A DNA stretch of 64,000 nt from Skermanella pratensis (GTDB lineage Bacteria > Pseudomonadota > Alphaproteobacteria > Azospirillales > Azospirillaceae): the NCBI RefSeq assembly GCF_008843145.1, contig NZ_CP030265.1:1409001-1473000 (forward strand). The letters run 5' to 3'. Positions within the stretch are counted from its first letter, which is position 1. Each line of letters starts with the position of its first letter. This document shows, one piece after another, positions 12,994 to 41,036 of the stretch. The notes under the pieces are model-generated. The model had not been told where the DNA came from, searched no databases, and worked only from the letters and a program-made list of their open reading frames with translations. A program made the translations under genes and the position numbers.

Positions 12994-12996
12994 GGG

Positions 12997-13090
12997 TCAC
13001 TGATCCCTACGCCGGTATCAACCGGATCAGGTTCCAGGGGTCGTCCCGCGTCTTGGGACCTCTCAGCCGACCATCGGCTCCCCCAGTGAG
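12997..13090 (-). promoter_or_regulatory. TPP (THI element) riboswitch
   Basis: On the minus strand the conserved THI-box segments appear in order: GGGGGAGCC, GGCTGAGAGG, GACCCCTGGAACCTGATC and GTTGATACCGGCGTAGGGA. The ends pair through TCACTG and CAGTGA (P1). It lies directly in front of thiZ, where thiamine pyrophosphate binding would repress the transporter operon. The 3' P1 strand ends 3 nt before the thiZ ATG, which suggests translational control. Confidence 0.95.
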
Positions 13091-13192
13091 GTTGGACAGA
13101 CTATTGCAAGTCCGCGAGGCCGTGGCAAGGCGCCGGGACACCGAATACGCACATAGTTGACGAATCGCGGGTGCCGGCCTAGGTCAGGGTCC

Positions 13193-16131: not shown

Positions 16132-16208
16132 GCGCCCTTAGCTCAGCTGGATAGAGCACCCGCCTTCTAAGCGGACGGTCGCTGGTTCGAATCCAGCAGG
16201 GCGCGCCA
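16132..16208 (+). tRNA. tRNA-Arg(TCT), integration site of the island
   Basis: A 77-nt cloverleaf with acceptor GCGCCCT/AGGGCGC, encoded CCA, anticodon loop CTTCTAA (anticodon TCT) and T-arm CTGGTTCGAATCCAG. Position 27-43 appears to be a C/A mismatch. Its 3' 45 bp are duplicated at 40992-41036, marking it as the attachment site of the genomic island. Confidence 0.95.
16164..16208 (+). repeat. att site (tRNA side) of the genomic island
   Basis: The 45 bp from the anticodon loop to the CCA end of tRNA-Arg are identical to 40992-41036. This is the usual attachment arrangement of tyrosine integrases using a tRNA 3' half; the tRNA gene remains whole. Confidence 0.93.
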
Positions 16209-19049: not shown

Positions 19050-20858
19050 TCACTGCCGTTGCTCGGCCTTGGTCTGCCCGCCTTGCTCGATTGGCTCCAG
19101 AGTCGCAAAATACTCCATCAGGAGCCGGTGAGTAAAAATGTATCCACCGCCGATCTTGCGCAGAAAGACGCGCTCGGCCGCATAATCCAGAAACGGGATG
19201 TAGTCCCATGGGGTATAGCCATTGCGCCATAACAAAACGCGCAAGGCATAATGTTTTAAGTAAGCAATTCCACCATTAGATAATCCTGAATATAAAGCAG
19301 CTAGCATTCCGAATTGTATCGCTCCGAACAAAGCGGTATCTGGGCCAAAGAACAGCCAAAACCCCAATCCGCTTGAAAGTCCACCTGTTAATCCGCTGAT
19401 CAGCGATATTGTTATCGAGTTTCTTAATGATCTTTTTATGCCCTCATTTGGGTGCGTTCGATATGTCATTCCCCCAATGAACATCCCCCCCTCTATTAAC
19501 ATGAATAAGCCACTGACCAAGCCTAAAGCTAAGCCGGCAATCAACCCGAATATTAAGTTCTCAACCATTCCAAGAATAAACCCATTGACAAGTGCAATGA
19601 CCAAACTGATTACCAAAATTCGTTTTACATTTATCCATGCTGATGACCATCCTAGTATCTCAGCAGGCGATATACGATCATCATTGTTCAGCCAGCTACC
19701 TAGTCCAAAGATCAAGCCAAAAGCTATGCCTACTGCTAGTCCGTAGAAGGAGCCGTTACGTAGCCCACCAAGTAGACCTGAGATCAATCCAGCAGCCAAT
19801 CCGGAGAATATATTTGGAATCATAGACACGAGCCGGCGCTGTCCCTTTAACGGCAGCCAACGTGGCTGCATCGACTCTACGTAGAATACGCTCAGGTTGG
19901 CATGCATCAACGAGCGGGCTAGCCAAGCCAGCCAGAGGATGGTCTGCTCCCGCGTGTAGTCGGTGGCTTTGGTCCGGCGCTCGAACATGCGTTCGCTGTA
20001 ATTTGCAAACAGGTGCGCCCGCCGCTCCTCCAGCGATCCGGTTGCCCTTACCTCGGCTGCCGACCGCCCTCGATATGCCAGCGTAACGATGCTGAGCATC
20101 AGCGGCGTGTCCAATAGCTCCCAAAGCGTTTCGTCTTCCCGCAAGGCCGTCCGCACCCCATCCAGCGGCTTTCCAGCCTGTTTCAGGTAGGTGCTGACCT
20201 GCGCCCGTAAGAGCGGTTCGATGGCGACCGCTCCCGACAACTCCACGCGCGTCGAAAGTGCTTGGTAGTCCGCCGCACGGCAGCACATGGCCAGCGGAAC
20301 AAGTCCGTGCCGATGGTGGAACGTGTTGATCGCCTCGACACATCCTGCGCGATGCTCCGGCGCGACCTCGTCCAAACCGTCCAGCAAGGGCAGGACTTGG
20401 TCGGCCTCGATCCAGGTCTGGGCGAGCTTGCGCTGTACGTAGTAACGCTCGGCCAACTCATCGACCAACCAGTCCGCCAGCGGGCGCCGCCGCACCGCCC
20501 AGGACGACAAGTGGAAGACCACCGGCATGGGATGACTCACGTCCCGCTCCGCCCGGTCCAGCAGGTCGCGGGCTAGCTCCAGCAGCAGCGTTGTCTTGCC
20601 CGCTCCCGGAGCTCCCAGAATGAGCAGCGCCTGGCCCAACTCGTCGAGGACGGTGTCCATCGCTTGCCCTGGTGGCAGCGGCCGGGGTGCTCGGTTGGGC
20701 TGTTGCACGATCACATCCCACGGCCGGCTGATGGCGTCTGGGATTTCCTCCAGACCCAGCTCGATACGGACAAGGTTGTCCAGCGAATGCTTCAGATAGC
20801 CGTCGATCCAAGTCTCTCGAACAGCCTTCAGCATCCGGCGGCGATTGGGATTGGACAT
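19050..20858 (-). CDS. NACHT-family NTPase with C-terminal Gly-rich membrane region
   Basis: 602 residues. Walker A is GAPGAGKTT (Lys88) and Walker B LLDGLDEV (residues 157-164), the NACHT/STAND arrangement. From about residue 340 the protein becomes strongly hydrophobic with many GLxxGL repeats (SGLAAGLISGLLGGL, AGLALGLVSGLF), suggesting several packed membrane helices. It lies 44 bp after a TIR gene on the same strand. Bacterial NACHT proteins are known antiphage sensors/effectors; here the membrane part could be the effector or anchor. The C-terminal half is AT-richer than the N-terminal half. Defence function is inferred from family and context. Confidence 0.85.
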   Translation of the reverse strand: MSNPNRRRMLKAVRETWIDGYLKHSLDNLVRIELGLEEIPDAISRPWDVIVQQPNRAPRPLPPGQAMDTVLDELGQALLILGAPGAGKTTLLLELARDLLDRAERDVSHPMPVVFHLSSWAVRRRPLADWLVDELAERYYVQRKLAQTWIEADQVLPLLDGLDEVAPEHRAGCVEAINTFHHRHGLVPLAMCCRAADYQALSTRVELSGAVAIEPLLRAQVSTYLKQAGKPLDGVRTALREDETLWELLDTPLMLSIVTLAYRGRSAAEVRATGSLEERRAHLFANYSERMFERRTKATDYTREQTILWLAWLARSLMHANLSVFYVESMQPRWLPLKGQRRLVSMIPNIFSGLAAGLISGLLGGLRNGSFYGLAVGIAFGLIFGLGSWLNNDDRISPAEILGWSSAWINVKRILVISLVIALVNGFILGMVENLIFGLIAGLALGLVSGLFMLIEGGMFIGGMTYRTHPNEGIKRSLRNSITISLISGLTGGLSSGLGFWLFFGPDTALFGAIQFGMLAALYSGLSNGGIAYLKHYALRVLLWRNGYTPWDYIPFLDYAAERVFLRKIGGGYIFTHRLLMEYFATLEPIEQGGQTKAEQRQ

Positions 20859-20902: not shown

Positions 20903-21367
20903 CTACCGAGGGTCGAAGATGCTCTCGATCGTGTGGGCAAGGTGATCGAGCACCTTCTCCTGCTCAGCTGGCAGCATGTCGCTCAGAGGGCGGCTGGGCG
21001 GATTGATGGCCTGGAAGCGGGCCAGGTCCGGACTCCGCGCGAAACGGGATGCGCTGAGGATCACCGGCAGGATGCGCACCCCCTTGGCCTTGGCGGCTTC
21101 TAGCAGCGGCGGCAGTTCGGTCTCATCGATGAAATCCGAGGCGAAGAAATCAGCGCTGATCAGCAGCACCGCGACCTGGGCCCTGTCGAGAGCGTTCTGG
21201 ATTTCCTGCTTCCAGTCATCACCAGGCCGGATGCGGGTATCGTCCCAACAGTCCAGGTTGCCCTCACGGACCAACGGCTTTAGATGCCGCTTCAGCCGGT
21301 CCAGCCATTCCTTGTCCGCGTGGCTGTAGCTGATGAAGACCTTGGTGCGGGTCGATGGTGATGGCAC
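20903..21367 (-). CDS. TIR-domain protein
   Basis: 154 residues, almost entirely one TIR domain: KVFISYSHADKEW at the N-terminus, the central WDDTRIRPGDDW, and SADFFASDFIDETELP, where Glu84 (or Glu82) sits at the position of the NADase catalytic Glu. Bacterial TIR proteins degrade NAD or make signalling nucleotides on infection. It precedes the NACHT gene by 44 bp, so the pair is probably an operon in which the TIR is the enzymatic arm or a partner of the NTPase. Confidence 0.85.
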   Translation of the reverse strand: MPSPSTRTKVFISYSHADKEWLDRLKRHLKPLVREGNLDCWDDTRIRPGDDWKQEIQNALDRAQVAVLLISADFFASDFIDETELPPLLEAAKAKGVRILPVILSASRFARSPDLARFQAINPPSRPLSDMLPAEQEKVLDHLAHTIESIFDPR

Positions 21368-25098: not shown

Positions 25099-25869
25099 AT
25101 GGAACTTCTGTTACTACTCGGCGGCATATGGGTCCTCTATCGGATAGTGAAGATTTTTAGAAAACCTTCCGTTCCCACGCAAACGTACTCGCGACCACAG
25201 CCGAGCCACCAGCCAGCGTCTCCACGGGGTAATCCGCCTCCACCCCCAAAGACAGCATACCGACCATCACCCTCCCGGAGTCGCCCCTCGCCGATAGTGT
25301 TCACCGACAGTTCCACAGCGGGAAAACCGACCGCGCTGGCAGAAAAAGACTTACAAGGTTTGCACGATGCGTTTACGGGCGCTCCGCTGAGTATCGCCCT
25401 CGGTCTGTATCAATGTGGTAACTGCAAGGTTTATTACCATACCGAGAGCTACACGGTTATACGCGAAGAGAACGGGGGCCTCTGCGTAGCATGCGGTCGA
25501 GCGGCCATTGTCGCCATTTCCACTGACCAAGCCAAAACTGGACGTGGAAGGGATTACAACCCGAACGTAATCACGCTTGCGGACTTCCGCCAACATTTTG
25601 GCCGAGTTGTAACGTTTGAGGGAACAGTGAAAGAGGTTCGCGTTAGCCGCCGAGGGTCTGACTACGCCGTTATGTTCGAGGATAAATCATGGACTTCAGG
25701 CTTCAAGCTCGTCTTCTTCCGAGGCGCTGTCACAAAGGTTGGCGGTCCAGCCTACATTAAGAGCTTGGACGGGCATCGAATCCGCGTTCGAGGGCTTCTG
25801 GTCAGCCACCAAAGATTCGGCCCCGAAATTATCGTCTCGGAGAAGTCCATGATCTTGGAGGTCGCCTAA
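25099..25869 (+). CDS. Membrane-anchored Zn-ribbon/OB-fold-like protein, first gene of Ubl operon
   Basis: 256 residues from the ATG at MELLLLLGG. Residues 3-20 form one membrane helix, followed by basic residues (KIFRKP) that would stay cytoplasmic, then a long Pro/Ser-rich linker (30-70). Two CxxC knuckles (C106/C109 and C129/C132) suggest a zinc ribbon. The C-terminal about 110 residues alternate beta-prone stretches (RVVTFEGTVKEVRVSRRGSDY, HRIRVRGLLVSH) resembling an OB-fold nucleic-acid-binding domain. I do not recognise a named family. It overlaps the J-domain gene by 1 bp (TAATG), so it belongs to the operon. It could be the target recogniser, an E3-like tether or the effector. Confidence 0.75.
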   Translation: MELLLLLGGIWVLYRIVKIFRKPSVPTQTYSRPQPSHQPASPRGNPPPPPKTAYRPSPSRSRPSPIVFTDSSTAGKPTALAEKDLQGLHDAFTGAPLSIALGLYQCGNCKVYYHTESYTVIREENGGLCVACGRAAIVAISTDQAKTGRGRDYNPNVITLADFRQHFGRVVTFEGTVKEVRVSRRGSDYAVMFEDKSWTSGFKLVFFRGAVTKVGGPAYIKSLDGHRIRVRGLLVSHQRFGPEIIVSEKSMILEVA

Positions 25870-26114
25870 TGCGCTGGAAAGGTCTCAACCAAGGCTACTC
25901 CGACCATATAGCGGCACTCGCCTCAAAGCCACCGCATGAAGTTCTCGGAGTTCCCGCCGATTGCCCCCGAGATGAGTTGAAGGCCGCCTACATCAAGCTA
26001 GTCAAGACTTATCATCCTGACACGTCCGATCCGTTTATGGCGCGCCACAATGAAGAGGTGATCAAAATAGTAAACGCAGCGTATAAAAAGATAGTGGGGG
26101 ATGCATCGAAATGA
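25869..26114 (+). CDS. Stand-alone J-domain (DnaJ-like) protein
   Basis: 81 residues with one J domain: EVLGVPADCPRDELKAAYIKL, the HPD motif at residues 49-51 (YHPDTSD) and the fourth helix VNAAYKKI. There are no Gly/Phe, zinc or client-binding regions. The HPD motif predicts stimulation of an Hsp70 ATPase (DnaK). It overlaps the E1 gene by 4 bp (ATGA), so it is translationally coupled to the conjugation genes. Recruitment of DnaK to the machinery or its targets is inferred. Confidence 0.88.
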   Translation: MRWKGLNQGYSDHIAALASKPPHEVLGVPADCPRDELKAAYIKLVKTYHPDTSDPFMARHNEEVIKIVNAAYKKIVGDASK

Positions 26115-27226
26115 CGGCACGCTACCATCGCCATAACTTAATTGATTGGTTCTCTCAGGATGTTATATCGAAGACCAGAGTCGCCGTCATCGGTGCTGGT
26201 GCGGTAGGGAACGAAGTCATAAAGAACTTGTGCCTTCTGGGCGTCGGAGAAATCCACATCTTCGACTTTGACTATATCGAAGAGCATAATCTCACGCGCA
26301 GCGTGTTATTTCGCGAGACTGACATAGGGATGCACAAAGCAGAAGTAGCCGCATGGCGGGCAACGGAACTAGACCCAAATGTGCAAGTGAAGGCAGTTTG
26401 CGGAGATTTCTGGGATACGCTTTCTGTTTCAGGCCTTAAAACCTTCGATGCTCTTTTCTGCTGCGTAGATAATTTCGAAGCAAGAATAAGATGCAACACT
26501 TTGTGCTACCTAGCCAAAACAAACTTCATAAACGTGGGTATAGATAGCCGCTCAGTGTCGGTAGAGACATATCCCTTCTCCAGCAATCTAAAGTCTGGCT
26601 GCATCGAATGCAACCTGCCTGAGACTGTGTATCGCCGTATATCGGAGCGGTATTCTTGCGGTTACCTTAAGAAAGTGTCTTTCGTTGAGAGGAAGGTTGC
26701 CACGACGATCATAACTTCAAGCATTGCTGGCAGCTTTGCGGTATCCACAGGTTTGCGATTGGGCACAGATGCTGATGAGGCTTCGATGCCTAATCGCTTA
26801 TACGTAGACACCATTGCCGGCAATCTCACACGTACCACCTTGGCGAAACGGGATGATTGCCCCTGCTGTGGGCGTATTCCCGCAAACGTGACGTTGATAC
26901 GCACCAAGCGCGATGTGCGCGGTCTGGAGAACAGCTTAGGGGCAAACGCTACTGTGGTTATGAGCGAGCCAATCCTTGTGGGCTATAGGCTGTTGGGAGA
27001 AGGAGCTAGTCATATCATTTTTCGTAAAGCTTCAGAGTTTGATGACGGATTTCCCGCAACATTGGCGAGCGATCCAGGCGATGTCGAGATGGAGGTTCGA
27101 GACCAGTTCACGCTGGCCGAAATAGCTGAACGGTTCGACGGCCATCAGATACCGTCTAAGTTTGCGGTTGTGGAAACGGATCAGCACACACTGATATGTG
27201 AGTTTGATGGAGATGAACATGAGTGA
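26111..27226 (+). CDS. E1-like ubiquitin-activating enzyme (ThiF/HesA fold)
   Basis: 371 residues. The Rossmann adenylation domain has GAGAVG (28-33), the ATP-site acidic and Asn/Arg residues in FDFDYIEEHNLTR (51-63) and Lys76. Two CxxC pairs, C164/C167 and C250/C253 (CIEC, CPCC), form the usual structural zinc site. Cys183 (ERYSCGYL) lies in the crossover loop and is the best candidate for the thioester Cys. A C-terminal region of about 110 residues may bind the E2 or Ubl. It would adenylate the Ubl C-terminal Gly and pass it to the E2. It is coupled to its neighbours by 4-bp and 8-bp overlaps. Confidence 0.93.
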   Translation: MTARYHRHNLIDWFSQDVISKTRVAVIGAGAVGNEVIKNLCLLGVGEIHIFDFDYIEEHNLTRSVLFRETDIGMHKAEVAAWRATELDPNVQVKAVCGDFWDTLSVSGLKTFDALFCCVDNFEARIRCNTLCYLAKTNFINVGIDSRSVSVETYPFSSNLKSGCIECNLPETVYRRISERYSCGYLKKVSFVERKVATTIITSSIAGSFAVSTGLRLGTDADEASMPNRLYVDTIAGNLTRTTLAKRDDCPCCGRIPANVTLIRTKRDVRGLENSLGANATVVMSEPILVGYRLLGEGASHIIFRKASEFDDGFPATLASDPGDVEMEVRDQFTLAEIAERFDGHQIPSKFAVVETDQHTLICEFDGDEHE

Positions 27227-27470
27227 AGTAAGTGTGATTATTAGGACTGCTGACCAGACACGGAAGGCTGAAGTTGCTATGTCGCGCACAAATACCGGCG
27301 GCGATGTGATACAAGCGGCTGTGGATAACTGGTCTCTGCCCGCCGACACCGATTACACGTTGGTGAATACATCCACAGGAAAGTCCATACTGCCCTCGCA
27401 GCAACTCTCAGAGGATGTGGTGCAGAGTGGCAGTGTGCTTGAAGTTCAGCCGGTTCTGGTTGCTGGCTAA
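27219..27470 (+). CDS. Ubiquitin-like beta-grasp modifier with exposed C-terminal Gly
   Basis: 83 residues from the ATG that follows GGAG by 6 nt; a GTG seven codons upstream is less likely. The pattern beta-beta-helix-beta-beta fits a beta-grasp fold: SVIIRTADQ, a central helix near DVIQAAVDNW, YTLVNTSTGKSILP, and the terminal DVVQSGSVLEVQPV strand. The resemblance is to YukD/ubiquitin-type proteins. The protein ends in PVLVAG, so the reactive Gly is the last residue and no proteolytic maturation is needed. The start overlaps the E1 stop by 8 bp. It is the predicted modifier conjugated to target proteins. Confidence 0.88.
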   Translation: MSEVSVIIRTADQTRKAEVAMSRTNTGGDVIQAAVDNWSLPADTDYTLVNTSTGKSILPSQQLSEDVVQSGSVLEVQPVLVAG

Positions 27471-27485
27471 AGCTGGGGGGCAATT

Positions 27486-28127
27486 ATGTCAGCGTTCATT
27501 GAACGGCGAAACCAGGACATTCAGAAACTTTTTGAATTGTGCGGGCAGTCGGATGGCCGCATTGAGGTTGCCAGAGTCTCGGGCAACCCACCTAATGAAG
27601 TTGAGGTTGGGATACGTTTGAGAACAGCACCATCCAACCAGTACCCCATCTCTGTTCAGAACCTAACGAAGGTGCTTATTTCCCTTCCTTCGCGATACCC
27701 GTTCCAAGAACCAACTGCGACCATCAAGACACCCATATTCCATCCCAATGTCTACTCTTCTGGAAAGATATGCTTCGGAACGAAATGGCTTCCGTCACAA
27801 GGGCTTGACTTGCTCGTGAGGCGAATCGTTCAGATCATCACTTTCGACCCCACCATATTGAATGGTCAATCACCTGCCAATGGTACCGCTCTAAGTTGGT
27901 ACCGCGATGCTGTTCGACGGCATGCAGGAGCTTTTCCAACAGACACATTGACCCTGAGCGCATCGGCTACTCCCAAGAAAATGGCTTGGTCTGACGTGCG
28001 TGGTGAGAGTGAGGAGAGAACTACCGTCCAGTGTCCAAGCTGCCGGGGAAGCTTGTCGCTCCCTAAAGGTAAGTCTGGCAGGGTCCGATGTCCAAAATGC
28101 AGTACCGCATTCGAGGCAGAAACATGA
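27486..28127 (+). CDS. E2-like ubiquitin-conjugating enzyme with C-terminal Zn ribbon
   Basis: 213 residues. The UBC core is strikingly eukaryote-like: SLPSRYPFQEPTATI, the HPN tripeptide at 86-88 and the active-site Cys96 in SSGKICFG, followed by LDLLVRRIVQIITFDP and NGQSPAN. After a linker, residues 183-205 form a zinc ribbon (C183/C186 and C202/C205). Cys96 would receive the Ubl from E1. The ribbon may bind targets or the membrane protein encoded first in the operon, which also has a ribbon. GGGGGG lies before the ATG. Its stop overlaps the JAMM gene start as ATGA. Confidence 0.93.
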   Translation: MSAFIERRNQDIQKLFELCGQSDGRIEVARVSGNPPNEVEVGIRLRTAPSNQYPISVQNLTKVLISLPSRYPFQEPTATIKTPIFHPNVYSSGKICFGTKWLPSQGLDLLVRRIVQIITFDPTILNGQSPANGTALSWYRDAVRRHAGAFPTDTLTLSASATPKKMAWSDVRGESEERTTVQCPSCRGSLSLPKGKSGRVRCPKCSTAFEAET

Positions 28128-28684
28128 TTGTGTGGCGCGAACAGCCGCCGGATTTCCGCCAGCAGGAGATTGGAAAGCTGTTGAGACGCTTGCCCTTCAC
28201 AAGCGCCTGCATCGTCGCACTTGGAGATGGGTTGCGCCCCAAGGTTGTAGTTGCTCAACGAGCACATGAGGGGGTTTGGGCACATCTTTCTGAACGTAAT
28301 GTTGAAATGGGTGGACTGCTCATAGGAAGCGTGCACACATTAGAGGGTAGCACAGGAGGATTTGTCGTTGCAGTCGAGGACTTTGTCCGGAGCGAACACT
28401 ACGAGAGCACTGGCGTATCCTTGACGATGGAATCTCAAGTCTGGAATACTGCACGCCTGAGGGCGAAGGAGGAAATGTCAGTTGTCGGATGGTATCATAG
28501 CCATCCAAGTTTGGGGGCTTTCTTTAGCGGAACTGACAGAAAGACGCAGGCTCAGTTCTTCAGCCATCCGTATAGCGTCGGCCTCGTTATTGACCCATTC
28601 CGTCATGAGGAAATGTGGTTCTTGAGCGGGGAAAGCATTTCTCTGGACCTTTTTCAAATCTTTATCTCACCTGAGGTGTCGTGA
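28124..28684 (+). CDS. JAB/JAMM-domain metalloprotease (deubiquitinase-like)
   Basis: 186 residues from the ATG that overlaps the E2 stop by 4 bp; an in-frame ATG at 28088 is an alternative. The JAMM zinc site is complete: Glu in VEMGGLLIG and the HxHx7Sx2D motif in WYHSHPSLGAFFSGTD. Such enzymes cleave isopeptide bonds. Because the operon Ubl already ends in Gly, the likely role is deconjugation or editing rather than precursor processing. It is the last gene of the operon, followed by IS remnants. Confidence 0.92.
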   Translation: MIVWREQPPDFRQQEIGKLLRRLPFTSACIVALGDGLRPKVVVAQRAHEGVWAHLSERNVEMGGLLIGSVHTLEGSTGGFVVAVEDFVRSEHYESTGVSLTMESQVWNTARLRAKEEMSVVGWYHSHPSLGAFFSGTDRKTQAQFFSHPYSVGLVIDPFRHEEMWFLSGESISLDLFQIFISPEVS

Positions 28685-29533: not shown

Positions 29534-30355
29534 ATGGCGCTCACAGCATGGGTGGCTAATCGGTTTAACGGCGGGCCGGCGCCACGCGGGCCGCAGCCGG
29601 ATCTGTCGACCAGCGAGATCATCACGCTGCTGCTTGTGCTCCACAGTTCAGGCTTCAAGCATCTCAAGAGCTTCTATCACGGCTTCGCCGAACCGCTGTT
29701 GCGCGGCTACTTTCCCGGCATGCCGTGCTACGAGCACTTCGTCGCCCTGCAGAAAAGCGACTTCGTGCCGCTGGTGTTCTTCCTGCACAGTCACCTGGGG
29801 ACCAGGACCGGGCTCTACTACATCGATTCCACCGCCCTGCCGGTCTGCGACAATCATCGCATTAGCCGGCACAAGGTGTTTGCCAATCTGGCCCAGCGCG
29901 GCAAGACCTCGATGGGCTGGTTCTTCGGCTTCAAGCTGCACCTCGTCTTCAACAACGACAATGAAATTGTCGCCCTGCAGCTGACCCCTGGCAACGTCCA
30001 TGGCACCACGCCAGTCCCGGCGCTGACCCGCGACCTGACCGGCAAGCTGTTCGGCGACAAGGGCTATATCGGCCAGAAGCTGGCCGAAGACCTGTTGCGT
30101 CGCGGGCTGACGCTGTTCACCCGCGTCCGCAGGAACATGAAGGCGCCGCCCATGTCTTTACACGATAAAGCCTTGCTCAATGCCCGGAACATGGCCGAGA
30201 CCATCATCGGCCATATCAAGGAGTTCTCGTCCCTCAATCTGTCCAGGCATCGATCCGTCATCAACGCCTTCGTTCACATCATCGCCTACCAGATCAACCC
30301 GTTCAAGCCCAAGCGCAACCTTCAGCCCCGCTATCGTCTCCAAACCACTGCCTGA
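29534..30355 (+). CDS. IS982-family transposase, probably 5' truncated
   Basis: 273 residues with the DDE domain typical of IS982: YYIDSTALPVCDNHR, KTSMGWFFGFKLHLVF and LFGDKGYIG. The usual first 20-30 residues of the family are absent and the start at MALTAWVANRF is a makeshift Met. Downstream lies CCCCTTATCGGGG, likely the right terminus, but I see no matching left end before 29534. The element has probably lost its left part at the junction with the IS1380 remnant. Confidence 0.85.
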   Translation: MALTAWVANRFNGGPAPRGPQPDLSTSEIITLLLVLHSSGFKHLKSFYHGFAEPLLRGYFPGMPCYEHFVALQKSDFVPLVFFLHSHLGTRTGLYYIDSTALPVCDNHRISRHKVFANLAQRGKTSMGWFFGFKLHLVFNNDNEIVALQLTPGNVHGTTPVPALTRDLTGKLFGDKGYIGQKLAEDLLRRGLTLFTRVRRNMKAPPMSLHDKALLNARNMAETIIGHIKEFSSLNLSRHRSVINAFVHIIAYQINPFKPKRNLQPRYRLQTTA

Positions 30356-30412: not shown

Positions 30413-30940
30413 CTAACTCCGCTCCGCCTGTCCAACCCGTCCCAGCTTGGTCCAGGGTTGCTTTGAATTGGCCAGCACCGCCCCCGCGAGATCGTCGGGC
30501 GGCTGGATGCCCAGGGCAGCCATCACGGAGCGGAACTCCGCCTCCAGCGCTTCGCCGGTGAGCGGCTCGGCCTTGGCGGCCGGCGTGGGCGCGTCCATCA
30601 GCCCGTGCAACTTAGCGAGCGCCACCGCTGCCCCGGTCAGGGCGGCCGGTTGCTCGCGCTGGCGGGCCAGCTCGGCGGCCTCGATCAGAAGGTCGGTGAC
30701 GGTCTCCAGACTGACGACGCGCCGCTCCCGCGCGGCTTCCTGTGCCTCGATCATGGCTGCAATGATCCTTGGATGATTGAGGAGGTCTCGCGCCCGATAG
30801 CTGGCGCTCCGGCGGGTCATCTTCGGCTTATACGCCTCAACGTAGGCATCAATCGGCTGCAGCCCACCGAGCAGGTTCTCGACGAAGCGTTGCTGCTTCT
30901 CGGTCAGACCGGACCTTACCTTCCGCGTCGCCGCCGTCAT
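30413..30940 (-). CDS. Terminase small subunit-like protein
   Basis: 175 residues from MTAATRKVRS. The N-terminal DNA-binding region reads LTEKQQRFVENLLGG...DAYVEAYKPK and RDLLNHPRIIAAM, the terminase_2 (TerS) signature, followed by a helical segment and a low-complexity tail. TerS recognises pac/cos sites for packaging. No large terminase or capsid gene is present, so in this island it would redirect a helper phage packaging motor, as in phage-inducible chromosomal islands. That role is inferred. Confidence 0.8.
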   Translation of the reverse strand: MTAATRKVRSGLTEKQQRFVENLLGGLQPIDAYVEAYKPKMTRRSASYRARDLLNHPRIIAAMIEAQEAARERRVVSLETVTDLLIEAAELARQREQPAALTGAAVALAKLHGLMDAPTPAAKAEPLTGEALEAEFRSVMAALGIQPPDDLAGAVLANSKQPWTKLGRVGQAERS

Positions 30941-31315
30941 GTTGAGCCCACTTCGGTGCTGGAACACAATCGGTATTGTGTACATATATATAGCGCTTCA
31001 GCCACGATAAAGACACAAAATATGGCGATGGAGTGCGGATTGCCGCTGTCTCGTTCGGGTAGTTGGGTCAGTGGTCAAAGCTCTGAAATCCCAGTCGGCT
31101 CTGACCAGGGCAGCGGGAAAATCTTCGCCCAGGCGGTATATCGGCTATATCACTTTGCCCCTGCGGTTACTCACCTTACCTCGTAAGAGGCGGATGGACT
31201 GTGCCGGCGAACTTAATCGAGGTTGGCGAGCAACCCTCTGGCTGGAGGGGCGCCACCAGCATTTAAAAAGGCAGATCATGATCAGCGCTCACTTCGCCCA
31301 TGCCGGCGCAGGCCT

Positions 31316-31592
31316 GGTCAAGGTGGGTCAGGGTCTGGTCAGGGTGAACGCTGTATAGAAGCCCGCAGGATTGCTGGGCTGGTCAGGGTGGTCAGGGCGG
31401 TCAGGGTTGGTATTGTTGATGGAAGCACATGTCTGAGCAGCGGCTCTCAGGATATCTCTCACTGCAGCGCTGGGCGATTTGACCGATTTCACTGCGACCA
31501 CCCTGACTACCCTGACCAGCCCAGCATTTCCGCGGGCATTTCGCGCCGGCATCCTTGACCAAGACCCTGCCCATGCCTCTTTCACCCTGACC
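31316..31592. repeat. Iteron-like repeat cluster (candidate replication origin)
   Basis: The 9-mer GGTCAGGGT or a one-base variant occurs at 31316, 31326, 31337 (about 10-bp spacing), then head-to-tail at 31381, 31390 and 31399. Inverted copies (ACCCTGACC type) are at 31500, 31509 and 31584, with a weaker one at 31552. A more AT-rich segment separates the arms. It lies directly downstream of the primase-helicase gene, where P4/PICI-like elements place their origin. Confidence 0.75.
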
Positions 31593-31609
31593 AATGCAGG
31601 GTAAGGAGG

Positions 31610-34144
31610 CTATTCGTCCTCAGAACCCTCACCGTCAGAAACCGCTGGCCAGTTGATTGGGCCACCGATCGCGATCTCGAAAGCGGCGCGGGCGTCTCGC
31701 AAGGGAGGAAACCTGATGGACAGCGGTCGTTCACCGGACGAGTGCCGCGGCCGGTACATTTTCATAGTAGGTACCAAGCTGCGCAGTTGCTTCCAGAACA
31801 TGGCCTGTGGCTCCGGACGGTATTCAGCTTTCTGGTTCCCCACCCATATGACATATTCTTGGTACAGGCTGTTCTTTGACGCGCCTGTCATCCAGCAGTG
31901 GGCGTCGATTTCTACCGCTATAACCTGTATCTGGCTATCTGTCGGTTCGGGTGGTTCGTCGGCCACACACAACCGCTCGAACCACCAGCGTGATACGCCG
32001 TGCAGGCTGAAGAGCTTCTGCTCGATCAGGCCGGCCGTCGTCGGCGCCGTGCGGTGGTTCCACCCGGCAATGTCACGTCGGAGCATGTCGTGGAGGAACG
32101 CCGCCAATCCGCCGGCCTCCATCTCGGCGTTCAACGCGGTGAAATATTCCCTGTTGCCCTTCACCGTGTCAGGAACATCGAGCACCAGGTACCGGCGTGC
32201 GTCCTTGGCGGCCGGGACGGCCCAGTCATTGTTGGTCGCCATGATGACCCGCAGCAGGTTCGGCGCCTGGACAGCATCCACCCCCTTGCGTTCGATCATC
32301 AGCGTCGGTTCGGTGATCAACCCCTTGAGCACCCCGTCAGCAGCCCGGTCGCCGGCGAAGAAGGCTTCGTCGGCGAACAGGAGGAGCACGTCGCGCAGAT
32401 GGCCGTTGAAGTTCCCGATCACGTGTCTCGGGTTGGTCACCTGGATGCCGTGTATGCCGAGGATTTCGCGGAGAGCACGCCCCAGGGTTCCCTTCCCGCT
32501 GCCCTCACCGCCGCGCAGGACGACGGCCACCTCCGCCTTGACCATGGGCTGTTGGAACATGTGCGCGCACCAGTTCAACAGCCAATCGCACAGGCTGGTG
32601 CTGCCCGAGCAGATGACGTCGAGGAGATGCCGGTGCAGCAGCGGCCACTCACCCGGGCGAGGCTCGATGCCAAAGCCGCGCCAGAGATTGAAGGTGTCCG
32701 CCGGGGCGACTTGGCCGGGCAGAAACACCAAGCCGCCCAGGTATTGCCGGCGGTGTTCGTGTTCCAGCCAAGCATCACCAAGAGGACGCCGCATCGGCTG
32801 CCCGTTCTTCCGCCTGCCGACCTCAACCCGGTGGTTCGCGTACAGGGAGGAAATCTGGGCGGGGGAGCTGAAGACATAGACCGGCTTTCCAGTCGCGTAG
32901 TCGAGCTTTTCCGTCATCACCAACGTCTTGCCGGCGTCGAACACGACGGCGTGCCGCTCGTTCATCTTCAGGACCCAAGCAGGCGTGTCCGCCCGGTCGA
33001 AGGATCGCACGACGCAGCGTGCGAGATACCGGAGTTGGGCCGCCTCGGTGGTATGCTTACCCGTGTCGCAGGCCGCTCCATGCTCGAAGGCCCGCAGGAT
33101 GAGCGCGACATCGACGCCCGAGAAGCCAGCCTGCTTGAGCATGGACGCGAGGCTCATGTCCAAGCCGCTGCGGCTGGTGTCCATCAGCCCGGCGGTGTCA
33201 CCCTCCCAGCGGCACCGCAGGGGCTCGGACGCGGCCAGGGCGGTATCCAGGCCCGACTGGAGGGCTAGCGACAGGTCGGCCCATTCCCGGACTTCCAGCA
33301 CGCGCTTGGCGCGCATCTCGCTGATCAGGGCGGCAATGGCCGCCCCCATCTCAGGAGTCGTCATCGCGCTCCGGGGCCGGTTTGCGGGAAGGTCCATGGC
33401 CTCCCCGGAAAAAGCGGATGGTCCCGACTCGGCCAACAGCCGGTCCGGCAATGCCTCCAGCTGATCGGGCGAGTACTCCCCGCCGCCCAACCATAGAACC
33501 CTCGCCTGGGTTATGCCGCGCCCCTTGTCCCTTTTCTTCCCATGAGGAAAGTTCAACGTTCCCGGCATACGCATAATGCGGTCGGTGTTGAAGGTGTTGT
33601 CGCCGCCCAACGCTTTCCCGATGGCCTTGGCGAGCGCTTCATTTCGGCGTGTCGCCTCACCGTTCGGTCCGTCGAGGGGGTATGGCTCGGCAAAGCGCCA
33701 GAACAGCTGGACGCCGTTGCCGCTGTCGATGATCACGGTCGGCGGGAAGTCAGGATCGGCCGCAAGTTTTTCTGCAAGGGCGAGAAGCCTCTGGCGTTCC
33801 CGATCCCAGCCGCCGGGCTCAATCTCCTCGGCTTCTCGGGGGTCGATGTCGGCCCAAATAGCGAGCGCGGCGGCCATATCCGCCTTGGCCGGCTTTGTCA
33901 TTACCGGCCCGTGTGTCTGGTTGGGGACGAAGTATATGTTCGCCTGGTTTTCCTGATGGAACTTGACGAACTTCGGTACTCCGGCTTCGATCTCATCAGG
34001 ATCGAAGGTTCTGCCGATCAGCTTACCGCTCGCATGAATGGCGATCAGTGTAAAAGGGTTGCCTTTCGACCAATAGAGCGCAAATTCAACGGCGCCAACA
34101 TTCGGCTCGTCACCTTGGTTGTAGGATAATGCGCTTATCGTCAC
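31610..34144 (-). CDS. Primase-helicase replication protein of the island
   Basis: 844 residues. The N-terminal third resembles RepB/AEP-type primases: WADIDPRE (metal-binding acidic pair) and VIIDSGNGVQLFWRF. The C-terminal half is a DUF5906/D5-like superfamily 3 helicase with Walker A RGGEGSGKGTLG, Walker B-type VLLLFADEAFF and the sensor segment IMATNNDW. A single protein that primes and unwinds is typical of satellite elements. The iteron-like cluster follows its stop. Its start overlaps the stop of the upstream gene by 4 bp (ATGA). Confidence 0.85.
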   Translation of the reverse strand: MTISALSYNQGDEPNVGAVEFALYWSKGNPFTLIAIHASGKLIGRTFDPDEIEAGVPKFVKFHQENQANIYFVPNQTHGPVMTKPAKADMAAALAIWADIDPREAEEIEPGGWDRERQRLLALAEKLAADPDFPPTVIIDSGNGVQLFWRFAEPYPLDGPNGEATRRNEALAKAIGKALGGDNTFNTDRIMRMPGTLNFPHGKKRDKGRGITQARVLWLGGGEYSPDQLEALPDRLLAESGPSAFSGEAMDLPANRPRSAMTTPEMGAAIAALISEMRAKRVLEVREWADLSLALQSGLDTALAASEPLRCRWEGDTAGLMDTSRSGLDMSLASMLKQAGFSGVDVALILRAFEHGAACDTGKHTTEAAQLRYLARCVVRSFDRADTPAWVLKMNERHAVVFDAGKTLVMTEKLDYATGKPVYVFSSPAQISSLYANHRVEVGRRKNGQPMRRPLGDAWLEHEHRRQYLGGLVFLPGQVAPADTFNLWRGFGIEPRPGEWPLLHRHLLDVICSGSTSLCDWLLNWCAHMFQQPMVKAEVAVVLRGGEGSGKGTLGRALREILGIHGIQVTNPRHVIGNFNGHLRDVLLLFADEAFFAGDRAADGVLKGLITEPTLMIERKGVDAVQAPNLLRVIMATNNDWAVPAAKDARRYLVLDVPDTVKGNREYFTALNAEMEAGGLAAFLHDMLRRDIAGWNHRTAPTTAGLIEQKLFSLHGVSRWWFERLCVADEPPEPTDSQIQVIAVEIDAHCWMTGASKNSLYQEYVIWVGNQKAEYRPEPQAMFWKQLRSLVPTMKMYRPRHSSGERPLSIRFPPLRDARAAFEIAIGGPINWPAVSDGEGSEDE

Positions 34145-35904: not shown

Positions 35905-37110
35905 TCAGGTCTTTGTCAGCGCGGCGAGGGCCGCTTCATCACTGGCGGCCATGCCGGTCATGGTTTCAAGCGTCAGGTAACGATGTTGTAGTTGCCACTC
36001 GTCATTCTGCTCGAGAAGTACAGCACCAACAAGCCTGCGAACGCTGGCCTCGTTCGGGAAGATGCCGACGACATTGGTCCGGCGCTTGACTTCCTTGTTC
36101 AAGCGCTCGATCGGATTGGTCGAGTGCAACTTGCTACGATGGGGTTCAGGATAGTCCATGTAGGCGAGCACGTCGTGTTCGGCATCGTCGAGCAGGGCGG
36201 CGACCTTGTGAAAGCGCGGGCGGAGCTGATCGGCGACGTGGCGCCAGGCTTGTCCGGCAGTCTCGCGATCGGGCTGGACGAAGACCTGCCGGACAGCGGC
36301 CGAGACGACCGACTGCTGGCTTTTCGGCACATGGGCCAATAGCGATCTCATGAAATGCACCCGGCACCGTTGCCATGTGGCGCTCAGGACCTGCGTGATG
36401 GCCGCCTTGAGACCTTCGTGGGCGTCGGAGATCACCAGCTTCACGCCCTTCAGGCCGCGACGGACCAGACCACGCAGAAACTCGATCCAGAAGGTGGCGG
36501 CTTCAGATTGACCCAGGCCGAGCCCGAGGATTTCACGGCGGCCGTCCTGGTTGACGCCGGTGGCGATTATTGCCGCGATCGACACGATGCGGCCATTCTG
36601 GCGGACCTTGATGTAGGTCGCATCGAGCCAAAGGTAGGGCCACTCGCCATCCAGCGGCCGCTCGAGGAAGGACAGCACGCGGGTGTCGATGTCCTGGCAC
36701 AGCGCCGAGACCTGCGACTTGGAGATGCCGGTCATGCCCAGCGCCTGGACCAGGTCATCGACCTTGCGGGTGGACACGCCCTGGATCCACGCTTCCTGGA
36801 TCACGGCCGTCAGCGCCTTCTCGGTAGTTTTGCGGGGCTCCAGAAAAGCCGGAAAGTAGGTCCCCTGGCGCAGCTTCGGTATCTTCAGGTCGAGCGTGCC
36901 GAGCCGGGTTTCCAGCTGACGATCCCGATAGCCGTTGCGGTATGTGGTGCGCTCGTCGGAGCGCTCATGGCGCCCGGCGCCGATCAGGCCGTCGACCTCG
37001 AACTCCATCAGCCGCTGGAGCGTGTGAGCGGCGATGGCGCGCAGGAAGTCGCCATCGGTACTGGCCTGGATCTGGTCGAGCAGAAGTGTCATCGTATCCT
37101 TGGTCATCAT
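35905..37110 (-). CDS. IS256-family transposase
   Basis: 401 residues, the usual IS256 (mutator-like) length. Family features: LMEFEVDGLIGAGRHERS, RTTYRNGYRDR, the catalytic Asp in LWLDATYIKVR, the second Asp in LVISDAHEGL, the CxxH-type CRVHFMRS, and the C-terminal Glu region NPIERLNKEVKRR. It appears intact. The start follows the GGxATGATG context rather than the upstream open extension, which crosses the hairpin region. Confidence 0.95.
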   Translation of the reverse strand: MMTKDTMTLLLDQIQASTDGDFLRAIAAHTLQRLMEFEVDGLIGAGRHERSDERTTYRNGYRDRQLETRLGTLDLKIPKLRQGTYFPAFLEPRKTTEKALTAVIQEAWIQGVSTRKVDDLVQALGMTGISKSQVSALCQDIDTRVLSFLERPLDGEWPYLWLDATYIKVRQNGRIVSIAAIIATGVNQDGRREILGLGLGQSEAATFWIEFLRGLVRRGLKGVKLVISDAHEGLKAAITQVLSATWQRCRVHFMRSLLAHVPKSQQSVVSAAVRQVFVQPDRETAGQAWRHVADQLRPRFHKVAALLDDAEHDVLAYMDYPEPHRSKLHSTNPIERLNKEVKRRTNVVGIFPNEASVRRLVGAVLLEQNDEWQLQHRYLTLETMTGMAASDEAALAALTKT

Positions 37111-37200
37111 GCCTCTCTCGGGGTCTGGTCTCGTGTCGCAACTCGACCTTACCTGATGAGCGTGATGACCACCTCCGCGTCGTTGCGGCCCCAGGGGCGG

Positions 37201-37257
37201 AGGGTTGAGGCGGCCCGGGTTCCGCTCTGCGAGCTCCACCCGGGCCGCCTCAACCCT
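37201..37257. repeat. 20-bp hairpin in the IS256 leader
   Basis: The arms 37201-37220 (AGGGTTGAGGCGGCCCGGGT) and 37238-37257 are perfectly complementary with a 17-nt loop. It sits between the terminal repeat and the transposase start and could limit read-in transcription from outside the element. Confidence 0.75.
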
Positions 37258-37341
37258 TCAGGGGCCAATTTCCACCACTCCGCTGGACGTTACCTCGGGC
37301 AGTTTGTGATTCGGTTTCACCGCATTGATCTGCGGAGGGAC

Positions 37342-38411
37342 ATGATGGTGGCTGTTGCGATCCGACGAGACATCGAGGCCAGCGAGTTGCGGCGCCTTGC
37401 CCGCCTGGAGCGGGATGGTCGGGTATCCAGCCGGCTTCTGGCGCTGGCCGCGGTGCTCGATGGTGTCAGCCGCGAACAGGCCGCCCGCATCGGAGGAATG
37501 GATCGGCAGACCCTGCGCGACTGGGTTCACCGCTTCAACGAAGCGAGTGTGGCAGGCCTGCGCGACCGTGCCCGGTCGGGTCGGCCTTGCCTGCTGGCCG
37601 AGGAACTGCTCCCGGAGTTGGCCGCCCTGATCGCCGACGGCCCGCAGGTCGAGCGCGACGGTGTGGTCGAGTACCGCCTGTCCCATATCCGCGCGTTGTC
37701 GCTGCGGCACTTCGGCGCCGACTACAGCCAGGGTGGCATGCACGCCGTGTTGCGCCGGATGGGCTTTTCCTGGCTGAAGCCCCGGCCGATCCATCCCAAG
37801 ACCGATCTTGTGGCCCAGGAGACATTTAAAAAAACTTCGGCCAGACGCTGGCATGCATCCGTGATCAGCATCCCGAAGTCGAGCAGGTGGAGGTCTGGTT
37901 CCAGGACGAGGCCAGGGTCGGCCAGAAAGGCTCACTGACCCATCTGTGGGCCCCGACCGGCACGCGACCTCGAGCGGTGCGCGACCATCGCTTCAAGTCC
38001 GCCTACATCTTCGGCGCGGTTTGTCCGGAGCGCGACACCGGGGTGGCACTGGTGGTCAACCGGGTCAGCACCGAGGCGATGAACCTCATGCTCGCCGAGA
38101 TCAGCCAAGCCGTCGGCAAGGCCGCACATGCCGCCGTGCTGATCGACGGCGCCGGCTGGCACATCGCTAACGATCTCGAGGTGCCGGTCAACATCACTCT
38201 CGTCCCGCTGCCGCCCTACAGTCCGGAACTCAATGCCATTGAGCGTCTGTGGCAAGTCATGCGGGACACCCTGCTCTCACACCGCCTCTTCACCGATCTC
38301 AACCACATCATCGAAGTCTGCTGCACAACCTGGAATACTCTCATCGGCCAGCCTGGACGGATCCGGTCTACATGCGGTTACTCCTGGGCCGCACCAGTCA
38401 GAACTTCCTGA
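37342..38411 (+). CDS. IS630-family transposase expressed by probable -1 frameshift
   Basis: ORF A (37342-37938) carries the helix-turn-helix half (RIGGMDRQTLRDWVHRF, RARSGRP). ORF B, in the -1 frame to 38411, carries the DDE half (VWFQDEARVGQKG, LIDGAGWH, LPPYSPELNAIERLW). At 37825-37835 the sequence TTTAAAAAAAC holds an A-AAA-AAC slippery heptamer; a -1 shift there joins FKK to NFGQTLACIRDQHPE, restoring the normal family sequence. So this is probably one functional gene with programmed frameshifting rather than a pseudogene. The start follows GGAGGG. Confidence 0.85.
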
Positions 38412-38560: not shown

Positions 38561-38715
38561 GGTAGAATGTTTCCCTGTCTAAAATTGAAGCTGTGCCCCG
38601 CGAGCAGATGGCGGGCACTGGTGCATCATGTAGATTGAGAGTTACAGGTGCCCGGCAATTGTAGTCCTTGCCGGGCACTGTCCAACTACGCCGCTTCACG
38701 CGTCAGGGCGGCTGC
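38540..38715. repeat. Diverged duplicate of an alpA-gene X junction, copy 2
   Basis: The counterpart of 34830-34996. Here the AlpA-like gene is whole and the downstream gene is reduced to its first 16 codons, the reverse of copy 1. Confidence 0.65.
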
Positions 38716-38958
38716 TTCGCGCCCGGCCAGCTTCCTGGCTAGCCATTCGAGGATTTCGGCTTCCAGCCAGGCTACCCGGTTGCAACCAAGATGGATACGG
38801 CGAGGGAACTCGCCTTTTTGCTCTAGGCGCCAGACATGCACGGCGCTGTACGGAATTTTGGCGGACAGTTCCTTCGCGGTTACCAGCTTGGGAACCGCCG
38901 ACGGCATTGGTGAGACCCCGCCTTTGGGAAAGGAAGGTTGGGTCGTTCGGTCGTCCAT
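38686..38958 (-). CDS. AlpA-like excisionase/transcriptional regulator
   Basis: 90 residues with the MerR-type winged helix of AlpA/excisionase proteins: LVTAKELSAKIPYSAVHVWRLEQKGEFPRRIHLG followed by VAWLEAEILEWLARK. In P4-like elements and PICIs, AlpA activates excision and the replication genes. It lies near the integrase at the island end, which fits that job. Confidence 0.87.
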   Translation of the reverse strand: MDDRTTQPSFPKGGVSPMPSAVPKLVTAKELSAKIPYSAVHVWRLEQKGEFPRRIHLGCNRVAWLEAEILEWLARKLAGREAAALTREAA

Positions 38959-39025: not shown

Positions 39026-39631
39026 CTACCCGAGCAGTCCGGCCTCACGCAGCTGGACCACGTGCGCACCGACTCCGGCCTCGATCTGAAACTCAATCGA
39101 CTCCACTAGATCGCTCAGTGTCCGGCTATACGCACCTTTTCGATGGTTCTTCAAAAGTTCGTTGACCTGCTTGGACGTGAACCTCAGGTGGGCAGCCCCG
39201 ATCGCGATCACTTCCCGCCTTCGACCAGCAGGCGCCTTGTTGATCGCAGCGATGACCAGTGCGCGGGCATACTCCGTTTCGAGCGGCAGAGCGTTGCCGA
39301 CGCGCTGCGTGTGCGCCATTCGGTCCTCGGAAACACCCTTCAGTACGTTCTGCTGCGCATCTATCAAGTCATTGAGAGCCGGACAGACATGCCCCTGACT
39401 TTCCAGAAAGCTCCGGAAGGAGTAATTCAGCGCCAACCATAACTCCTGCTGCCGCCGTCGCCGTGCGACAGAATTTTCATCAGGTATGTTCCGCCAGTCA
39501 TGATTAAGTATCCCGATCTCCGCCAATAACGCTATCGCGGCATCTTCCAAACCTGGCGGAGGAGCACCCCTTGCGCTTAGTTCAGCCCGCTTGTGTAAGA
39601 CTTCGATGATCTTTGGAGGCTTGCGGCTCAT
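39026..39631 (-). CDS. Unknown helical island protein coupled to the integrase
   Basis: 201 residues from MSRKPPKIIE, whose ATG overlaps the integrase stop by 4 bp (ATGA). The protein is rich in Leu, Ala and Arg and predicted mostly helical, with no Cys pairs, signal or membrane segment. I do not recognise the family. Being translationally coupled behind the integrase and before alpA, it could be a recombination directionality or regulatory factor; this is context only. Confidence 0.65.
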   Translation of the reverse strand: MSRKPPKIIEVLHKRAELSARGAPPPGLEDAAIALLAEIGILNHDWRNIPDENSVARRRRQQELWLALNYSFRSFLESQGHVCPALNDLIDAQQNVLKGVSEDRMAHTQRVGNALPLETEYARALVIAAINKAPAGRRREVIAIGAAHLRFTSKQVNELLKNHRKGAYSRTLSDLVESIEFQIEAGVGAHVVQLREAGLLG

Positions 39632-40824
39632 GCCGGCCTCCGCAGCGGCTCTACATTTTCGATATGATCCGTGCGCCCCAGGGCGACCACGTAGCATGCC
39701 CATGCCTTCAGAGCCGTCTTGCGTTGGTCCAGATACTGACCCCGCTGGTAAACGGCGGCGATGCCGCGAACCGTGCTGCTGACGTGGTTCAGGATACGAT
39801 CGATCACGACTGGGTTGAGTCCTAAATCCTGACTGGCCATCGTCGCGAATGTCCGGCGCAGGTCATGGAAGCACCATCCGGTGACACCGCTGTCCGTCCC
39901 GAGCCGGGCGCGGGCACGGCTGAAGCCGCTGACGGAGGTGGTCAGCGTTGTCGTGAACAGGAACTCGACGTCATACCGGGGCAGGGTTCCCAGCACCTCC
40001 AGCGCGGCCGGGGCAAGATGGACAACGTGCTCGACACCGTTCTTGGCCCGTCCGCCTGGGATGGTCCAGATGCCTTTGTCAAGGTCGAACTCCGACCAGC
40101 GGGCGTCCGAGACTTCCCGGAGGCGCTGACCGGTCAGGATCAGTAACTGGGTCATCGGTCCGAAGGGATATCCTTCGCGGCCGGCAGCATTCCATACAAG
40201 GCGGAGCTCCTCCGGCGTTAGTACCCTGTCGCGTGACTGCTCGCTGCTCGGCGCCTCCATCGACGTCAGCGGGCTTGCGCTCACATAGTCGCGGCCGGCA
40301 GCCCAGGTGAACATCCGCCGCAACCGGCTAAACACCCGGTTTGCTTCCACAGGCGCGTGGCGATCGATGATGGCGTCGAGCAGTCGGTGGATGTCGGCCT
40401 TGCCGACCGCGGCGATATCCATCTGGCCGATCTGGGGCAAGACATCCTTCCGGAATGACCGTTCGACCTCGGCGGCGCTCCGATTGCAGGACTGGTCCCG
40501 CTTCAGCCACTCGGAAACCACCATTTCGACCGAACGCTTTGCTGTGGCGGCGGCCTTGGGCCTGGTGCCCTTGCGCAACTCGCCCAGTACCTTCACAGCT
40601 TCCAGCCTGGCGTTCGCCAGCGACATGGCTGGGAACTCGCCCAGGCGCCCCCTGACCAGCTTGCCATCGGCGCGGCCTAGGACGGACCAGGATTTCCTGC
40701 CGGTCGGCTCAACGCGCAGGCGCAGGCCCCGAACAGTGGCGTCGGGGTATTCGGTTCGGTCATTGGACGGCCGCACCTTGTCAACGAAGGTGGCGGTTAG
40801 AGGTTTTTCGGTGAGACGGGGCAC
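39628..40824 (-). CDS. Tyrosine-type integrase (P4-like)
   Basis: 398 residues. The N-terminus has the arm-binding DUF4102-type region (PLTATFVDKVRP, GLRLRVEPTGRKSW), then the SAM-like core-binding domain and the catalytic domain with Arg in TGQRLREVSDARW, HDLRRTFATM (HxxR) and nucleophile Tyr in AAVYQRGQY. It is transcribed inward from the right end, with its start about 170 bp from the 45-bp attachment repeat at 40992-41036. It would catalyse integration into tRNA-Arg. Confidence 0.95.
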   Translation of the reverse strand: MPRLTEKPLTATFVDKVRPSNDRTEYPDATVRGLRLRVEPTGRKSWSVLGRADGKLVRGRLGEFPAMSLANARLEAVKVLGELRKGTRPKAAATAKRSVEMVVSEWLKRDQSCNRSAAEVERSFRKDVLPQIGQMDIAAVGKADIHRLLDAIIDRHAPVEANRVFSRLRRMFTWAAGRDYVSASPLTSMEAPSSEQSRDRVLTPEELRLVWNAAGREGYPFGPMTQLLILTGQRLREVSDARWSEFDLDKGIWTIPGGRAKNGVEHVVHLAPAALEVLGTLPRYDVEFLFTTTLTTSVSGFSRARARLGTDSGVTGWCFHDLRRTFATMASQDLGLNPVVIDRILNHVSSTVRGIAAVYQRGQYLDQRKTALKAWACYVVALGRTDHIENVEPLRRPA

Positions 40825-40991: not shown

Positions 40992-41036
40992 CTTCTAAGC
41001 GGACGGTCGCTGGTTCGAATCCAGCAGGGCGCGCCA
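40992..41036 (+). repeat. att site (integrase side) of the genomic island
   Basis: Exact 45-bp copy of the tRNA-Arg(TCT) 3' half including CCA. The 5' half of the tRNA is absent, so this is an attachment scar and not a second tRNA gene. Confidence 0.93.

Follow-up and report, generated by a model that had tools for sequence, protein, structure and literature searches.

A mirrored iteron array 3' of a DUF5906 primase-helicase gene as a probable replication origin of a PICI-like element

The window (the whole stretch of Skermanella pratensis DNA analysed here, 64 kb) contains a two-armed array of 9-bp iterons just 3' of a primase-helicase gene, which we consider, with a probability of roughly 0.87, to be a PICI-type replication origin recognised by the element's own primase-helicase. 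The initial annotation had proposed an origin bound by this protein, and the position of the array supports that proposal, being that of published Gram-negative PICI origins and resembling that of P4 crr. The carrier of the array is best read as a phage satellite of PICI-like type that has inserted into a tRNA-Arg gene, and comparison with relatives strongly suggests that the array would be the site at which the primase-helicase starts copying the element. Origins of this kind are already known; a single word common to satellites and phages is less expected. The analysis assigns a testable origin and initiator to a satellite-like element with anti-phage gene candidates, and it shows that plasmids and phage contigs encoding DUF5906 helicases also have the origin layout published for PICIs.

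Structure of the iteron array

Analysis of positions 31316-31592 revealed the six direct copies of GGTCAGGGT in two trios that the initial annotation had described, four of them exact and two with one mismatch each: the outer-trio copy at 31316, which reads GGTCAAGGT, and the middle copy of the inner trio at 31390, which reads GGTCAGGGC. The spacings were also as claimed, with starts 10-11 bp apart in the first trio and a head-to-tail arrangement at 9 bp in the second. At least four facing inverted copies are present, in agreement with the same description, and the innermost facing copies are separated by a gap of 92 bp (Table 1). A further inverted copy with one mismatch is located at 31625, within the primase gene. 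The inner iterons are also covered by a 42-nt inverted repeat, the arms of which are 93 nt apart. The AT-richness of the central gap is only moderate (GC 0.53), and a reduced GC content is in any case common in intergenic DNA.

The symmetry had been regarded as beyond chance, and the counts bore this out. Within an 800-bp stretch centred on the 3' end of the primase-helicase gene, the best 9-mer, TGGTCAGGG (up to one mismatch), occurs 11 times, compared with at most four in 30 dinucleotide shuffles, four in the 5' flank and four in the gene body. Over the 64-kb window, GGTCAGGGT with up to one mismatch gave 49 matches versus 15.2 expected; 11 of the 49 fall in 31316-31633, and every other 400 bp of the window holds three or fewer. 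Chance clustering of the iterons was rejected by these shuffle controls and window-wide counts. When phages and plasmids were searched for similarity to the array, short pieces only were returned, and four tandem forms of GGTCAGGGT had no occurrence in the literature searched, most subscription papers lying outside its reach.

Table 1 Features of the array and of the element that carries it
Feature	Position in window	Strand	Remark
attL-like 45-bp repeat	16164-16208		3' end of tRNA-Arg(TCT) (16132-16208)
Small terminase subunit (Terminase_2, phrog_51)	30413-30985	-	domain matches
Outer iteron trio, GGTCAGGGT	31316-31345	+	starts 31316, 31326, 31337
Inner iteron trio, 9-bp head-to-tail	31381-31407	+	starts 31381, 31390, 31399
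Central gap, 92 bp	31408-31499		GC 0.53 vs 0.65 for the 64-kb window
Inner inverted iterons	31500-31517	-	31500 with 1 mismatch; 31509 exact
Outer inverted iterons	31552-31592	-	31552 and 31558 with 2 mismatches each; 31564 with 1; 31584 exact
42-nt inverted repeat, 88% complementary	31361-31402 / 31496-31537		spans inner iterons and beyond
Primase-helicase, 844 aa, DUF5906 (PF19263), phrog_1156 DNA primase	31610-34144	-	proposed initiator
AlpA regulator (PF05930)	38686-38958	-	42.2 bits vs curated cut-off 21
Integrase (Phage_integrase, Arm-DNA-bind_3)	39628-40824	-	domain matches
attR-like 45-bp repeat, identical to the attL-like one	40992-41036		adjoins integrase gene

The element and its primase-helicase

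The two copies of the 45-bp repeat delimit an element of about 24.9 kb, a length that includes at least four IS-type transposase regions; PICI size is given as 10-20 kb in the accessible portion of PMC10111431. Between the att-like repeats, the integrase, AlpA, primase-helicase, array and terS all lie on the minus strand, with the array placed between the 3' end of the primase-helicase gene and the small terminase gene. The element shares with Gram-negative PICIs an integrase with a specific attachment site, an AlpA regulator, a layout in which primase/rep is followed by two iteron sets around an AT-richer stretch, and a common transcription direction of the core genes, terS included. Capsid, tail and large terminase genes were absent from the part of the element's ORFs that was scanned, and a search of four further genomes from the genus gave no match to the right flank of the element. 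P4-like satellites carry an alpha protein with a CHC2/Toprim primase, whereas the window protein matched DUF5906 only, without CHC2 or Toprim. The element also differs from PICMI, which integrate at fis (PMC10803314, available text), in that its repeat is at tRNA-Arg.

The AlphaFold model of the primase-helicase, built from nine sequences, has a mean pLDDT of 57 and is usable for residues ~382-730, which form a helicase fold, and 752-835. The latter C-terminal domain is modelled, in blocks of pLDDT 69-87, as a pair of helices followed by two short strands and a third helix, and may be read as winged-helix-like; a fold search gave no match to this domain alone. The closest solved folds to the model are the NrS-1 C-terminal region, PriRep1, ASFV PrimPol and the SaPI5 primase-helicase, and the modelled helicase resembles the SaPI pri-rep-ori system in its matches to PriRep1 and SaPI5, at an identity of ~13-14%. 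The N-terminal domain was modelled with pLDDT under 50; that the protein may have a primase-polymerase domain is hinted at by its matches to phrog_2478 and phrog_10514. As a single query, the window protein retrieved no relative in viral contigs and one in genome contigs.

Arrays beside homologous helicase genes

Twenty-seven other loci were picked by helicase similarity, with repeats ignored: eight from genomes, seven from plasmids (of eight matching records) and 12 from phages, the last chosen for variety from 186 at E 1e-30. Left out of this set were L023 and L024 (contig end), L007-L013 (weak genome matches) and L025 (duplicate). Strong two-orientation arrays, with 7-13 copies of one 9-mer, were found in the 3' flank at eight of the 27 loci, each exceeding the maximum of 30 shuffles of its own region; they comprised five of the seven plasmid loci, two of the eight genome loci and one of the 12 phage loci. 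Most of these arrays (7/8) use words other than GGTCAGGGT, such as GTCCAGGGT in a Roseomonas plasmid, and the array of the E. coli plasmid pEC224_4 carries the window's own word. Such other-word arrays at the same place beside other DUF5906 helicases, the five plasmid loci included, lend further support to the origin proposed in the initial annotation.

A strong array was absent from the remaining 19 of the 27 loci. Two of these were slightly above their own shuffles (L020 with five copies and L032 with six), and L033, with five copies, only equalled its shuffle maximum, yet its word GGCTTAGAT is common to L033 and L032. The other 16 were at or below the shuffle maximum, with L003, L005, L016, L018 and L022 equal to it; nine of these 16 array-poor loci are phages, and in all nine the next annotated gene starts within ~135 bp. 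Control counts did not exceed six copies in 5' flanks (present at 27 of 28 loci) or five in gene bodies. The word shared by L032 and L033, which are phages Elanor and AAT-1, lies 3' of the primase in both, and the next annotated gene after the weak array of AAT-1 is a putative small terminase. The Vibrio plasmid pMP1 (L015) contains a second, different array of eight TACAGTTA copies at 6606-6938, far from its primase-helicase array.

The window's word in viral contigs

A search of the viral collection with the pattern GGTCAGGGTNGTCAGGG matched at least 120 stretches. We defined a both-strand array as five or more copies in 400 bp with both strands represented, and such arrays of the window's word occurred at 34 of 120 viral loci among the matches listed. 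The initial annotation had held that an array conserved without any primase gene would refute its reading; among the matches listed, DUF5906 scored above the Pfam cut-off in 28 of the 34 array records versus 10 of the 86 others, in support of that reading. The Pfam searches are free of the circularity that affects our helicase profile, 11 of whose 12 proteins came from pattern loci. By that profile, 24 of the 34 arrays among the matches listed, or ~18 distinct ones given the near-copies, lay no more than 200 bp from the 3' end of a helicase ORF, an adjacency that is partly by construction since the profile was drawn largely from these loci. The near-copies among the pattern loci were L043, L049, L086, L101, L145 and L147, and also L071 and L090; owing to such duplication, Fisher test values for the array counts come out too small.

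The six array records without DUF5906 above the cut-off were heterogeneous. L053 starts at a contig edge with a readable helicase C-terminus, and its profile adjacency is through this C-terminal fragment only; the array of L142 is at a contig edge with no profile-matched ORF; and L159 has a sub-threshold DUF5906 match just before the array. L073, L151 and L153 showed no DUF5906 match in the record and no helicase by profile. Ten of the 34 arrays among the matches listed had no abutting profile-matched ORF. Five of them are those of L142, L159, L073, L151 and L153. Of the other five, L047 is a truncated version of another locus whose array does abut a helicase, L119 has a DUF5906 gene ~2 kb from the array on the expected side, the arrays of L089 (~5 kb) and L146 (~1.8 kb) are on the 5' side of the helicase gene, and that of L122 is inside the helicase ORF. 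Three of the other 86 loci listed matched the helicase profile, and in two of these, L128 and L134, the pattern was directly 3' of the gene.

As a control, a full scan with the reversed word TGGGACTGG gave 76 stretches. Both-strand arrays were found at eight of them, ~5 distinct given the near-copies; none of the eight was beside a helicase by profile and none was in a DUF5906 record. Across all 76 reversed-word loci, the helicase profile matched one and Pfam DUF5906 matched two. Both-strand TGGGACTGG arrays in records without DUF5906 were seen in L215, L218, L239, L204 and L229. One-strand runs of GGTCAGGGT-like units were observed in L042 (12581-12688, 10 copies) and L067 (1-381, 19 copies), both of which carry a DUF5906 gene away from the run.

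Oriented by the gene, most arrays consist of an outer set at ~9-12 bp followed by an inner set with 9-bp spacing and, beyond a central gap, the mirror image of these sets. In 23 of 26 rows the gap measures 67-127 bp. It is poorer in GC than the locus in 24 of the 26, the exceptions being L094 (equal) and L134 (higher).

Helicase lineages that share the word

All ten scanned genes abutting both-strand arrays carry DUF5906, three or four of them having been picked by the profile. Seven of the ten proteins are P4-alpha-like: each has D5_N and a CHC2 zinc ribbon, and most also have Toprim or Pox_D5. The remaining three are similar to the window protein. A tree was built from 47 helicase cores, with rows under 400 aa, the near-copies L086, L090, L101, L145 and L147, and L149 (doubtful reading frame) omitted; on it, the P4-alpha-like and window-like helicases fall on opposite sides of a fully supported split. 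The GGTCAGGGT label requires seven changes on this tree, and starred branches force no fewer than five of these. A value as low was seen in 82 of 500 shuffles; thus the label is not clearly clustered, and its spread over the tree is biased because most GGTCAGGGT rows were fetched by that word. The presence of GGTCAGGGT in both clades indicates that one word serves, or has passed between, very different initiators.

The locus nearest to the window by tree path, L112, is a 10.9-kb contig with genes for a capsid protease, a capsid protein and the primase-helicase, followed by the array and a small terminase gene, a set that presumably recalls capsid-forming PICIs. A large terminase gene lies near the array in L097 and a tail protein gene in L108; full phages therefore seem to use the same word as satellites. 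A tentative extension, to which we give rather less than even odds, is that GGTCAGGGT in mirrored arms is a widely shared origin word, retained by or exchanged between two deeply separated helicase lineages, in satellites, phages and episomes. If so, phage and satellite initiators could fire each other's origins, satellites could exploit the replication code of their helper or be excluded through it, and origin competition between phages and their parasites would be directly testable with a simple binding word. Provided that one word serves both lineages, and phages as well as their parasites, GGTCAGGGT-type arrays could also help to find satellites in raw sequence.

Comparison with known origins and alternative explanations

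The closest published counterpart is the EcCICFT073 type of PICI. According to the accessible sections of PMC6092414, two iteron sets always flank an AT-rich region immediately 3' of rep in several E. coli PICIs, and the rep-ori segment of EcCICFT073 supports a plasmid. The window resembles these elements in having the putative origin 3' of primase/rep with iterons flanking an AT-richer stretch, and in a co-directional integrase and AlpA, with terS present in some of them (PMC6092414, same sections); the likeness is drawn from the published layout and not from the iteron words. The window element differs in being longer and in containing IS and candidate defence genes. As for P4, the record annotation places the beginning of crr ~45 bp beyond the 3' end of alpha, and its repeats occur in both orientations; in contrast to the window array, crr consists of two 120-bp repeats, the annotated origin is a separate site with crr as a second required one, and the word of P4 is GGTGAACA when read on one strand. 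In pRN1, the origin lies directly 3' of the gene for ORF904, a primase-helicase with a C-terminal winged helix, but it is a stem-loop and uses no iterons (PMC4234260, accessible part). PICMI primases have been modelled as DUF3987/DUF5906, and the word "iteron" is absent from the main text as available (PMC10803314). PLE origins involve RepA with ~30-bp iterons and are cut by a phage nuclease that mimics the specificity of RepA, as stated in the available text of PMC8263062.

In the mechanism that we propose, the primase-helicase would recognise GGTCAGGGT through its C-terminal domain, the two mirrored iteron arms would load helicase rings facing each other across the 92-bp centre, and this less GC-rich centre would melt. 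The N-terminal primase domain would then lay primers for extension by host or helper replication machinery; we infer both the dependence on a helper and the direction of replication. The excised circle would multiply before being packaged, presumably with the element's small terminase subunit.

Alternatively, the primase-helicase might bind the array for copy control or incompatibility, or the array might be a second region that replication requires, with the true start elsewhere in the element. P4, with its separate annotated origin in addition to crr 3' of alpha, provides a precedent; we nevertheless regard this as unlikely, since GGTCAGGGT forms no other dense array in the 64-kb window when searched by that word, and since the 3' site is the origin in the Gram-negative PICIs that have been described (PMC6092414, accessible sections). 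A pac- or cos-like packaging start site bound by the neighbouring small terminase subunit seems very improbable. The start of terS is indeed ~330 bp from the window array, terS of L112 is ~550 bp beyond its array and the weak array of AAT-1 precedes the annotated terS, but arrays occupy the same place on plasmids L014, L015 and L017, where no terminase is annotated in gene tables that are incomplete and hold many hypotheticals. Because the common partner of the arrays is the helicase, we rejected terminase binding as their main function, although it may be a second use.

Still less credible is a pRN1-like stem-loop origin, or a terminator, in which the repeats would be a by-product of a long palindrome. 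The 42-nt inverted repeat with its 93-nt spacer would fit such a structure, and pRN1 offers a precedent in its stem-loop of ~100 bp located 3' of the primase-helicase gene (PMC4234260, accessible part); a palindrome, however, leaves the direct repeats inside each arm unexplained, and several relatives have opposite-orientation copies within one arm. A PICI-type origin recognised by the primase-helicase is therefore preferred over these alternatives.

Other features of the window

The element has been invaded by IS: transposase genes are located at 35905-38411, in the interval between AlpA and the primase-helicase, and at 29534-30355, beyond terS. Within the element, a gene for a NACHT protein (19050-20858) lies beside one for a TIR protein (20903-21367), both on the minus strand, and the two are likely an anti-phage pair. 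A cluster encoding DnaJ, ThiF (E1), E2-like and JAB proteins at 25869-28684, two of which gave PADLOC E1-E2 and JAB matches, is a candidate ubiquitin-like defence system. Outside the element, a TPP riboswitch was observed on the minus strand at 12985-13094.
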